Origin: Sphingobium xanthum
GTDB lineage: Bacteria; Pseudomonadota; Alphaproteobacteria; Sphingomonadales; Sphingomonadaceae
Reading direction: 5' to 3'
Assembly: GCF_019737615.1 (NCBI RefSeq)
Contig: NZ_JAHKKS010000009.1
Span: 1-64,000, forward strand
Length of the DNA: 64,000 bases
Notes under the pieces: model-generated
Seen by the model: only the letters and a program-made list of their open reading frames with translations
The model's database searches: none
Told to the model about the DNA's origin: nothing
Translations under genes and position numbers: made by a program
Part shown: in pieces, positions 11,220-14,112 of the stretch
How the letters are laid out: the number at the start of each line of letters is the position of its first letter
Numbering within the stretch: the stretch's first letter is position 1

Positions 11220-13216
11220 CGCAGGTCCGGCGGCGTCGCTTCCGCCACCAGCTGGGCGATGACTCCATCGACCGTCATCACCTTCTGATGCTCGTCCGAG
11301 CCGAGACGGCGCAGGGCGACCGTGCCTTCCTCCGCCTCGCGCCGGCCGACGACCAGCAGGTTGGGCACCTTGGCGAGGCTGTGCTCGCGCACCTTGTAGT
11401 TGATCTTCTCGTTGCGCAGATCGGTTTCGGCGCGGATGCCGGCGGCGGCCAGCTTCGCAACGACCTCCTTCGCATAGTCGTCCGCGTCCGAGACGATCGT
11501 CGCCACCACGGCCTGTGTCGGCGCGAGCCAGACCGGCAGCTTGCCGGCGAAATGCTCGATCAGGATGCCGATGAAGCGCTCATAGCTGCCGAAGATGGCG
11601 CGGTGGAGCATCACCGGCCGATGCTTCTCGCCATCCTCGCCGACATAGTTCGCATCGAGACGCTCGGGCAGCACGCGGTCGGACTGGATCGTGCCGACCT
11701 GCCAGGTGCGGCCGATCGCGTCGGTCAGGTGCCATTCCAGCTTGGGTGCATAGAAGGCGCCTTCGCCCGGAAGCTCTTCCCAGCCATATTCCTCCGTGGC
11801 GAGACCGGCGCGCACGACCGCATCGCGCAGCTCCGTCTCGGCCAGGTCCCACATCTCTTCCGTGCCGAAGCGCTTCTCCGGACGGAGCGCCAGCTTGATC
11901 GAATAGGTGAAGCCGAAATCCTTGTAGACGCGATCGGCGAGCTTGCAGAAATCCTGCACTTCATCGACGATCTGGTCTTCGCGGCAGAAGATATGGCCGT
12001 CATCCTGCGTGAACTGGCGCACGCGCATCAGCCCGTGCAGCGCGCCATGCGGCTCGTTGCGGTGGCAGCAGCCATTCTCGACAAGGCGCAGCGGCAGGTC
12101 GCGATAGGATTTGATGCCCTGCTTGAAGATCAGGATGTGCGCGGGGCAGTTCATCGGCTTGAGCGCCATCCACTGGGCGTCGTTCGACACCATCGGACCA
12201 TCGTCCTCGATGTTCGGCGTCTCGTCGGGGATGACGAACATGTTCTCGCGATATTTGCCCCAGTGGCCGGACTGCTCCCACTGGCGCGCGTCCATCACCT
12301 GCGGCGTCTTGACCTCCTTGCTGCCGGCACCGTTCACCGCCCGGCGCATATAATCCTCGAGCGCGCGGTAGATGACATAGCCATTGGGGTGCCAGAACAC
12401 TGAGCCATGTGCTTCCTGCTGGAGATGGAACAGGTCCATTTCCTGGCCGAGCCGGCGGTGATCGCGCTTGGCGGCTTCCTCGAGGCGCAGCAGATGCGCA
12501 TCGAGCTGCTTCTTGTTGAGCCAGCCCGTGCCGTAGATGCGCGAGAGCATCGCGTTTTTCTGGTCGCCGCGCCAGTATGCGCCCGAAACGCGCGTCAGCT
12601 TGAACGCCTGCGGATCGAGCTTGCCCGTCGAGGCGAGATGCGGCCCGCGGCACATATCCAGCCAGTCGTTTCCGGACCAGTAGACCGTCAGGTCCTCGTC
12701 GCCGGGCAGCTCGGCCGCCCATTCCGCCTTGAAGCTCTCGCCCTGGCTCGCCCAGCGCTCGATCAGCGCCTCGCGGCTCCAGACTTCGCGGCGCAGCGGC
12801 TTGTCGGCGGCGATGATCTCGCGCATCTTCGCCTCGATCGCGGGCAGGTCCTCCTCCGTGAAGGGACCGCGCGAGGCCGGAGCGGCCACATCATAATAGA
12901 AGCCGTCGTCCGTCGCCGGGCCGAAAGTGATCTGCGTGCCGGGGAACAGCGCCTGCACTGCTTCGGCCAGGATGTGCGCGAAGTCGTGGCGCACCAGCTC
13001 CAGCGCATCCTTCTCGTCCTTCGCCGTCACCAGCGCCAATTGCGCGTCGGCCTCCAGCGGGCGCATGATGTCATAGAGCTCGCCGTCCACCTTGGCGGCG
13101 AGCGCCGCCTTGGCGAGGCCCGGGCCGATGGCGGCGGCGATCTCCGCCGGCGTGGTCCCGCGCGCGACGTCGCGCTGCGAGCCATCGGGGAGCGTGATCT
13201 TCACTTGTTCCGTCAT
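11216..13216 (-). CDS. thrS: Threonine--tRNA ligase
   Basis: A 666-residue class II synthetase that charges tRNA-Thr. It has an N-terminal TGS domain ([14 protein letters not shown]), the second editing domain with [16 protein letters not shown], the catalytic core with the zinc residues seen around [13 protein letters not shown] and CCHRNEPHG, and a C-terminal anticodon-binding domain ([18 protein letters not shown]). Length is normal. The ATG at 13216 follows AGGGACAAAA. Upstream lie a threonine-rich leader ORF and competing hairpins, so expression probably responds to threonyl-tRNA supply. The GNAT gene follows with a 4-base overlap. Confidence 0.97.
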
Positions 13217-13277
13217 CGGTTTTTGTCCCTGTCTGCGTGCCTGCGCTTAGGCAAGCCGCGCCTGATTGAAAAGAGGC

Positions 13278-13372
13278 TCGAAAGGGGAGTGTGCCGCCGG
13301 CCCAGTCCCTTTCGGATGGGCCTCGGCTGGAACCGCGTCTGTTACGTGAGCGTGACGCGCATGCCGAGGCCC
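13278..13372 (-). promoter_or_regulatory. Candidate thrS attenuator (competing hairpins)
   Basis: On the thrS strand three stems can form but not all at once: GGGCCTCGGC (13372-13363) with GCCGAGGCCC (13327-13318); GGCCCA with TGGGCC across 13321-13299; and CGAAAGGG (13314-13307) with CCCTTTCG (13286-13279), which is followed by AGCCTCTTTT. The first and second compete, as do the second and third. Which stem terminates and which antiterminates is not settled by inspection. Confidence 0.6.
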
Positions 13373-13425
13373 CCCGGAGTGGTCCGGGTGGTGGTCGTAG
13401 TCGTCGTGGTGGTCGACATCGGCAT
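13342..13425 (-). CDS. Threonine-rich leader peptide upstream of thrS
   Basis: A 27-codon ORF starting ATG 13425 (MPMS) runs into nine consecutive Thr codons, one Arg, two more Thr, then PGGLGMRV and Thr-Leu-Thr before a TAA stop: 13 Thr in 27 residues. It ends 126 bases before the thrS ATG. Nested in-frame ATGs at 13437 and 13419 are alternatives. No ribosome site precedes any of them, but a candidate promoter places the transcript start at 13425, so the message may be leaderless, as reported for some alphaproteobacterial leader peptides. Ribosome stalling at the Thr run would report threonyl-tRNA shortage. Confidence 0.75.
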   Translation of the reverse strand: MPMSTTTTTTTTTRTTPGGLGMRVTLT

Positions 13426-13432
13426 GGGAGGG

Positions 13433-13461
13433 CTCATAGCAGGCAAGGATGAAACTGTCAT
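13433..13461 (-). promoter_or_regulatory. Candidate promoter of the thrS leader
   Basis: On the minus strand ATGACA (13461-13456) and TATGAG (13438-13433) are 17 bases apart, close to the sigma-70 consensus. The A of the ATG at 13425 lies eight bases past the -10 box, so transcription would begin at or next to the leader start codon. Confidence 0.5.
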
Positions 13462-13547
13462 CCCGCGCGACATGTCCCCGGTGCGGCATCGGCGATACAA
13501 GCGCATGACGCTCAATATGGCAGCAAATCGCGCTTGGCCTATTTTCT

Positions 13548-13561
13548 GGACAGGCCTGTCC
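13548..13561. promoter_or_regulatory. Perfect palindrome before the MarR gene
   Basis: GGACAGGCCTGTCC is a perfect 14-base palindrome ending 20 bases before the marR-family start codon, the usual place and symmetry for a MarR autorepression site. It also lies in the spacer shared with the divergent thrS leader, about 90 bases upstream of that promoter. Confidence 0.55.
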
Positions 13562-13581
13562 CGATCGGACACTAAGCAGTC

Positions 13582-14112
13582 ATGGGGAACGCCGCTCGCC
13601 CGAAGATCGACCGCACCGCGCAGTCCATCCTGAGCCTCGTCAAGCAGGTCCAGTACAAGGCGTTCGTCCGGCTGGAATCGGTGTTTCAGCCGCTCGGCAT
13701 CACGGCGGTGCAGTTCCGTATCCTCACCACGCTTTCCATGCGTCCCGGCCTCTCGTCGGCGGAGCTGGCGCGTCTGTACGACGTGAAGCCGCAGACGATG
13801 ATCAAGCAGATCGCGCTGCTGGAAGGCAAAGGCCTGATCGGCCGGCAGACCAGCCCGGCCAACAAGCGCCTGCTCGAACTGACGCTGACGGCCGAGGGCG
13901 CGACGGTCCTCAAGCAATGTCACAAGGGCTCGCTGGCGATGGAGCGGACGCTGCTCGATCCGCTGACCCAGGGCGAGCAGGACCAGATGCGCGCCATGTT
14001 GTTGACCTTGCTGCAATCGATGAGCGCGCCGACGATCGTGGATGAACCCGCACAGTCCGATCTCGAGGAACTCTCCCAGGAATATAGCCGGGTCGGCGTC
14101 CAGCGGATCTGA
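13582..14112 (+). CDS. MarR family transcriptional regulator
   Basis: A 176-residue winged-helix protein. The MarR core runs from about residue 15 to 150: QYKAFVRLESVFQPLGITAVQFRILTTL forms the first helices, SSAELARLYDVKPQTMIKQI the recognition region, and NKRLLELTLTAEGATVL the wing. Members usually repress nearby catabolic or stress genes and release DNA on binding a phenolic ligand. It stands upstream of, and on the same strand as, an LLM-type flavin oxidoreductase gene that it may control. The palindrome at 13548-13561 is its likely own operator. Confidence 0.9.
   Translation: MGNAARPKIDRTAQSILSLVKQVQYKAFVRLESVFQPLGITAVQFRILTTLSMRPGLSSAELARLYDVKPQTMIKQIALLEGKGLIGRQTSPANKRLLELTLTAEGATVLKQCHKGSLAMERTLLDPLTQGEQDQMRAMLLTLLQSMSAPTIVDEPAQSDLEELSQEYSRVGVQRI

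Follow-up and report, generated by a model that had tools for sequence, protein, structure and literature searches.

The window, a 64-kb stretch of the Sphingobium xanthum genome, carries on its minus strand a gene whose Pfam domains identify it with certainty as thrS, preceded by a short open reading frame (ORF) whose product is unusually rich in threonine (Table). The preliminary description of this DNA had reported a leader of 27 codons with nine consecutive Thr codons and 13 Thr codons in all, and exactly such an ORF is present. Its placement ahead of thrS also holds, although the distance to the thrS ATG (13216) is 125 bases by our count and not 126. A short ORF rich in cognate codons just before the controlled gene is a hallmark of attenuators, and here an ORF rich in Thr codons directly precedes the gene for threonyl-tRNA synthetase (ThrRS). 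Across all six frames of the window, no other run reaches four successive Thr codons; when 30 sequences of 64 kb were simulated (fourth-order Markov model), the longest run per sequence comprised 3 to 5 such codons. A pattern of six Thr codons occurs at two loci in the 4.06-Mb genome, one being the leader and the other lying inside a 729-aa ORF that by eye appears to encode a secretin. A search for a Cys-rich leader before the cysS gene of the window found none, the best stretch having 2 Cys of 9 codons. A MarR-family regulator gene (13582-14112, plus strand) is divergent from thrS, and the same-genus genomes compared have a different sequence upstream of thrS.

Upstream of the leader ATG are a -35-like and a -10-like element (P1), separated from one another by 17 bases and from the ATG by 7 bases. 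A strict sigma-70 scan of this region of the window reported no promoter, P1 itself failing the scan, but the P1 spacing does recur in relatives. When 64 leaders are aligned at the ATG, a -35-like TGAC block and a TA at positions -13/-12 emerge, and no ribosome-site signal is visible before the leader ATG. This set was enlarged to 69 by adding five leaders whose ATG was picked by hand. Requiring at least four of six matches in the -35 element, a spacer of 16-18 bases and a TA hexamer whose end lies 5-9 bases upstream of the ATG, we found a -35/-10 pair in register with the leader ATG in 60 of the 69, compared to 0 to 8 at 17 other anchors. Motifs resembling Shine-Dalgarno (SD) sequences are located upstream of the leader in 3 of the 69 cases, versus 18 upstream of thrS. 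Given the fixed promoter spacing and the scarcity of SD-like motifs, the leader transcript probably starts at or beside the AUG and would be leaderless, which supports the promoter pair and leaderless translation proposed earlier.

Features of the thrS leader region, in coordinates of the window
Feature	Position	Strand	Remarks
P1 -35-like element, ATGACA	13456..13461	-	Relatives carry it at the matching place before the leader ATG
P1 -10-like element, TATGAG	13433..13438	-	Ends 7 bases before the leader ATG
Leader ORF	13342..13425	-	27 codons encoding MPMSTTTTTTTTTRTTPGGLGMRVTLT; translation probably leaderless; L061-L067 have homologues before thrS
Nine-Thr-codon run	13387..13413	-	ACC ACC ACG ACG ACT ACG ACC ACC ACC
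Hairpin H0, CCCGGA ccac TCCGGG	13373..13388	-	Directly after the Thr run
Thr codons 15-16	13378..13383	-	Adjoin segment 1, much of which would be masked by a ribosome stalled at these codons
Segment 1, GGGCCTCGGC	13363..13372	-	Within the leader ORF
Segment 2, GCCGAGGCCC	13318..13327	-	Past the leader stop; partner is segment 1, or TGGGCC via GGCCCA (13317-13322)
Helix 3:4, 5' arm, CGAAAGGG	13307..13314	-	
Helix 2:3, 3' arm, TGGGCC	13299..13304	-	
Segment 4 (helix 3:4, 3' arm), CCCTTTCG	13279..13286	-	
U-rich stretch, TCTTTTC	13268..13274	-	4 bases past helix 3:4; candidate terminator tail or -35 of P2
P2 -35 candidate, TTTTCA	13267..13272	-	In 7/7 clade sequences; no gap to the -10-like block in any
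P2 -10 candidate, TAAGCG	13244..13249	-	Within an inverted repeat; in 6/7 clade sequences, TAGGGG in L062
thrS, threonyl-tRNA synthetase, 666 aa	11216..13216	-	Pfam TGS, tRNA_SAD, tRNA-synt_2b, HGTP_anticodon

The RNA extending from the leader ATG to thrS has a predicted folding energy of -86.7 kcal/mol (z -3.24 relative to shuffled sequences). All three competing stems claimed to follow the leader were located. Segment 1 can pair with segment 2 (helix 1:2), part of segment 2 can instead pair with TGGGCC (helix 2:3), and segment 4 can pair with the arm at 13307-13314 (helix 3:4). Helices 1:2 and 2:3 have bases in common, and helices 2:3 and 3:4 cross one another, which renders them mutually exclusive barring formation of a pseudoknot. 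A terminator scan of the window revealed no canonical intrinsic terminator before thrS. We aligned seven of the eight sequences of the clade that includes the window (alignment A1; L063 was omitted as nearly identical to L031). The U-rich TCTTTTC is found in six of these seven sequences and reads CCTTTTC in L065. A best-helix search, which was run without a control, found arms for helices 1:2, 2:3 and 3:4 in all seven. RNAalifold predicted 2:3 from the same seven sequences with an unfavourable covariation term (+2.54), and recovered neither 1:2 nor 3:4.

Folding of the window RNA under modelled ribosome footprints points to a possible switch. Helix 1:2 is predicted at 1.0 and helix 3:4 at 0.86 when the RNA is free or when a ribosome occupies the stop codon, and the fifth stem described below for relatives is shrunk here to approximately GGC:GCC and folds at 0.0. 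Footprints at Thr codons 15 and 16 bring 2:3 to 0.77 and 0.92, respectively, and 3:4 to 0.05 and 0.06. Based on these models, the likeliest arrangement for the window is the classical one, with 3:4 serving as a terminator and 2:3 as an antiterminator. Helices 1:2 and 3:4 would form by default, 3:4 together with UCUUUUC would terminate transcription, and a ribosome at Thr codons 15-16 would mask segment 1 so that 2:3 replaces 3:4. With footprints on codons 5-13, 1:2 stays at 0.98 or above and 3:4 at 0.41-0.86; because both helices persist, a stall on these codons would be expected to leave thrS off under this polarity. The mean level of 2:3 over the Thr codons is 0.16 for the window, 0.24 for L062 and 0.38 for L031, and does not exceed 0.04 for L061, L065, L066 or L067. 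In L031, 3:4 is at 0.0 in every footprint state.

The preliminary description had suggested examining related genomes for conservation of the Thr run, and the run does recur before thrS in many of them. The thrS gene was found in 41 of 41 close genomes, 297 of 298 genomes of the family, at least 80 named records and all 153 genomes examined from the class. Upstream regions were collected from 30 close loci, 29 further family loci, 80 more family regions and 80 named records; these 219 regions were reduced to 211 by dropping identical sequences and raised to 216 by five from a DNA search of the genus. As judged by reading, a Thr leader precedes thrS in 71 of the 216 regions (66 plus the five from the genus search) and is missing from 145, numbers that do not represent a frequency, the sample being uneven and mostly from Sphingomonadaceae. 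Windows of nine codons with at least five Thr codons occur in 69 of the 216 sense regions and in none of the 216 antisense regions. Three of these 69, L141, L172 and L187, have Thr-dense windows that we judged not to be leaders.

Examples of leaders from relatives are MAPMSITTTTTTTTTRFARGRLVAA, MTQERITTTTTTTPVTRGRSVAR and MTPLRTTTTTTTTRHFRGRLVAA. Among the named carriers are Sphingobium sp. SYK-6, Novosphingobium taihuense, N. panipatense, N. guangzhouense, Croceicoccus sediminis and Sphingomonas pruni, and leader-bearing bacteria occur in the genera Sphingobium, Novosphingobium, Croceicoccus, Altererythrobacter and Sphingomonas. None of the same-genus loci L002-L025 carries a leader, which had suggested that the leader is private to the genome of the window, a notion overturned by wider sampling. 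A DNA search of the genus with the leader region of the window matched 13 of 94 genomes; eight matches, including the genome's own, lie before thrS, and the remaining five are weak and are in places where no thrS was found. The leader has a scattered distribution. When mapped onto a phylogeny of 141 ThrS proteins, 38 of which have a leader, its presence and absence call for 15 changes, compared to 33 when labels are shuffled. Within the group of six around the window on this tree, L001, L061, L065, L066 and L067 have the leader and L034 lacks it; L031 and L062 carry the leader and are placed elsewhere. The C-terminal part of the peptide is RGRxVA or similar in many relatives, and PGGLGxRV and similar in the clade of the window.

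Conservation of the stems, also sought in relatives at the suggestion of the preliminary description, is strong in 53 more distant relatives and weak in the window's own clade of seven. The 53 leaders were obtained from the 64 aligned leaders by removing seven by hand (divergent or from another subgroup, including the window and L031) and four that are more than 90% identical to others. Five alternating helices are recognizable in this set (A2), namely H0 after the Thr run, 1:2, 2:3, 3:4 and stem 5. Segment 4 sits in the loop of stem 5, and 3:4 and stem 5 therefore cross and exclude each other barring a pseudoknot. Arms fit their own partners far better than other partners for 3:4 (z 8.2) and stem 5 (z 8.1). 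The corresponding values for H0, 1:2 and 2:3, helices that vary less, range from 2.3 to 3.2, and two control pairs give -1.7 and -0.2.

Two alternative states can be assembled from these helices. The state comprising 1:2 and 3:4 has 91.5% of its cells paired and 37 double-changed cells, neither value being equalled by any of 500 shuffles, while the state comprising H0, 2:3 and stem 5 has 88.7% paired and 36 double-changed cells (0 of 500 shuffles) and H0 alone 82.7% paired; kinship may inflate these counts, and the structures were derived from the same sequences. Slides and shuffles are concordant by most measures, an exception being the count of doubly changed pairs in the state with 1:2 and 3:4, which is matched by 4 of 500 shuffles and by a slide of +2. 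Mutually exclusive helices that carry compensatory changes, a further hallmark of attenuators, are thus found in the 53 relatives. When a modelled footprint is moved from the stop codon to the Thr run, 1:2 rises in 50 of the 53 sequences and 3:4 in 47, and 2:3 falls in 44 and stem 5 in 34. Threonine starvation would accordingly favour 3:4 in these relatives on this model, with stem 5 the likelier terminator. For most of the 53, the modelled shifts have the direction expected if read-through were to rise as charged tRNA-Thr falls. Stem 5 is followed by CCCTTCC in the consensus, a weak U tract. The polarity in the 53 relatives looks unlike the classical one, in that 3:4 competes with stem 5.

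A covariance model built from 43 of the 53 relatives recognizes most leaders that were left out of its construction, with E values from 5.9e-14 to 1e-4 (L200, L093, L040, L233, L125, L107 and L170) and 0.34 for L228. Values at places without a leader are 0.015 (L093), 0.088 (L040) and 0.23 (L002). Scores for the window (E 1.3) and for L062, L066, L061 and L063 (0.09 to 0.9) are at chance level, and no match was obtained in L065 or L067. A search of the class with this model gave no match, even in leader-bearing genomes, and is uninformative. At L174:113-222 (minus strand), a region that has no Thr run matches the model at 8.8e-4 and is perhaps a decayed leader.

Outside the family, 3 of 67 thrS regions (L266, L274 and L275) exceed the Thr-density threshold. 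In the alphaproteobacterial family of L274, 8 of 10 thrS loci carry a Thr leader, for example MTARTTTTATTTRTSCGGP (leaders at L304-L311); for one of the two leader-negative loci, L303, the upstream DNA is just 148 bases long. Seven of the eight leader loci possess an intrinsic terminator, ACCCTCC...GGAGGGTTTTTT, that ends in TTTTTT. The last leader codons contain GGAGGG in six of seven cases and GGGGGG in L309, and this sequence can pair with the 5' arm of the terminator. TTGACA and GATATT precede the ATG; the distance from GATATT to the start codon is 7 bases in six of seven sequences and 10 in L310. Judging from these sequences, a ribosome stalled on Thr codons would free GGAGGG to break the terminator, and a ribosome at the stop codon would mask it. 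Of 20 loci in the L266 family, 4 exceed the density threshold, and in the family of L275 its own genome is alone in doing so among 18 scanned. In a third family, L352, L357, L358 and L359 have a short leader before thrS that ends in TTLTTVRT (TLLTTVRT in L359).

Taken together, these features make it probable, though short of assured, that thrS is controlled by a ribosome-mediated attenuator with a Thr-rich leader peptide whose translation is probably leaderless. We infer the transcript start, stalling, termination in the window, polarity and threonine response as follows. Transcription from P1 would begin at the leader AUG. With charged tRNA-Thr in short supply, the ribosome would slow on the Thr codons, its position would select among the competing helices, and transcription would proceed into thrS. 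When charged tRNA-Thr is ample, the leader would be read through and transcription would end before thrS. The covariation of competing helices in the 53 relatives is as expected for a terminator/antiterminator switch. Counting against an attenuator are the lack of a canonical terminator, the weakness of the helices in the clade and the many regions that have no leader.

Alternatively, the same leader and the same stalling could operate with no intrinsic terminator, through Rho-dependent termination, RNA decay or coupling to a second promoter, P2, whose -35 element would be the U-rich stretch. We regard this as a tenable alternative of lower probability. It agrees with the negative terminator scan and with the arrangement downstream of helix 3:4, where TTTTCA and TAAGCG are separated by 17 bases in the window and the block between the -35 and -10 candidates is ungapped throughout the clade alignment. 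The homologous block in the 53 relatives, from CTT to TGTGCCATGG, is likewise ungapped save for one inserted base in L207. By one strict pattern, a P2-type element is found in 44 of the 71 regions with a leader and in 5 of the 145 without. However, the strong covariation of competing helices in relatives and the textbook terminator in the design of the L274 family argue for a terminating structure, and the P2 -10 element in relatives is poor (CATGGC and the like). P2 may be a basal thrS promoter, or, since its letters form an inverted repeat (with a weak own-partner fit, z 2.5), possibly a hairpin or operator. This element of fixed spacing (13244-13272 on the minus strand of the window; CTTYCGG-N12-TGTGCCATGG and similar in relatives) is also present before thrS at L187, L092, L164, L166 and L174, some of its occurrences being in genomes without a Thr leader.

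The remaining explanations appear much less probable. Control could reside mainly in a hairpin just ahead of the thrS start codon to which ThrRS binds, as in E. coli, with the leader secondary; autoregulation of E. coli ThrRS is mentioned in PMC2965389. Both in relatives and in the window's clade, a hairpin-like element with a conserved loop indeed precedes thrS closely, but the arms of this hairpin F, which was also considered as a terminator, fit their own partners weakly (z 2.5), its loop varies (TGTGCCA, TTCTGCCA, TGTGCAA) and the Thr run would be left unexplained; we consider this version very unlikely. No better prospects are given to a leader peptide that acts in trans, for which peTrpL of Sinorhizobium meliloti offers a precedent in the part of PMC7298713 available. 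Retention of the RGRxVA-like C-terminal part in many relatives would suit such a role; the RGRxVA codons, however, coincide with RNA segment 1, which can account for their retention, and the clade of the window has a different C-terminal part. Least credible of all, to the point of being nearly negligible, is that the Thr run has no function and reflects low complexity or the reverse of antisense coding. The plus-strand frame is open across the run (ORF 12407-13633, with a Val run), but this ORF has no Pfam match, and the Thr-dense windows on the sense strand, the promoter-like pair in register with the ATG of most leaders and the helices in relatives would all be left without a cause. A ribosome-mediated attenuator remains our preferred reading.

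Related arrangements are familiar from other bacteria. The Thr leader of the gammaproteobacterial thrABC operon (Rfam Thr_leader) is, like the ORF described here, rich in Thr codons, and it controls biosynthesis. In the pheST attenuator of E. coli, the leader peptide is likewise encoded with cognate codons of the synthetase, as at thrS, although the amino acid is Phe, the gene is a different one and the leader is not known to be leaderless. At gathering scores, no Rfam family matches the window, Thr_leader and T-box included, and at E values up to 10 there are two chance matches of other families in 13150-13650 and none of Thr_leader or T-box.

The closest parallel is from Streptomyces lividans TK24, where a leaderless thrL encoding a Thr-containing peptide precedes thrS (PMC8079986, as far as its accessible text goes). 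Both systems combine a Thr leader before thrS with a leaderless transcript, which is predicted in our case, and in both, termination is not clear-cut. S. lividans is an actinobacterium, however, its peptide (MKRVRPFLETTPGFVPAR) has two Thr among 18 residues, and the accessible text of that report describes one hairpin and reports no U-rich sequence. In Rhodobacterales, uORFC-8-2 before cysS is a candidate ribosome-mediated attenuator (PMC8632094, in the portion available); it too would govern an aminoacyl-tRNA synthetase gene of Alphaproteobacteria, but involves two tandem Cys codons, cysS, a different order and a different RNA. The attenuator transcript of S. meliloti trpL (rnTrpL) begins with the AUG of the leader ORF (PMC7298713 and PMC10117765, in their available parts), as we infer for the alphaproteobacterial leader in the window, although its target, trpE(G), is biosynthetic and it has a transcription terminator.

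Our literature search, which covered mainly openly available papers, found no thrS leader described in Alphaproteobacteria, and neither the RNA design nor the spread in Sphingomonadales was found in print. The earlier claim that no such leader had been described for alphaproteobacterial thrS stands to this extent, with thrL of S. lividans, going by the accessible text, already described in another phylum. The kind of system is therefore known from S. lividans thrL and the Rhodobacterales cysS attenuator, as far as the available texts go; new here are the lineage in which it occurs, its conservation and the design of the RNA. A broader proposal, which we offer tentatively and think rather unlikely to hold in full, is that control of thrS through leaderless Thr leaders arose repeatedly in Alphaproteobacteria, with different RNA switches. 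One family would use a two-state terminator and many Sphingomonadales a five-helix cascade; the clade to which the window belongs would have a reduced cascade with changed polarity, and its switch would also enclose a second promoter of thrS. Starting without a leader would belong to the mechanism and would couple the first ribosome to the RNA as it emerges.

For a large set of bacteria from soil and water, the leader provides a concrete and testable candidate regulator of ThrRS. Moreover, a promoter-like pair fixed relative to the leader AUG in dozens of genomes makes leaderless translation testable within attenuation. The choice of codons in the leaders is also distinctive, as ACT makes up 22.9% of their Thr codons and 6.2% of those in 77 thrS genes. 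The Thr run may favour a rarer codon, or may avert slippage-prone repeats.
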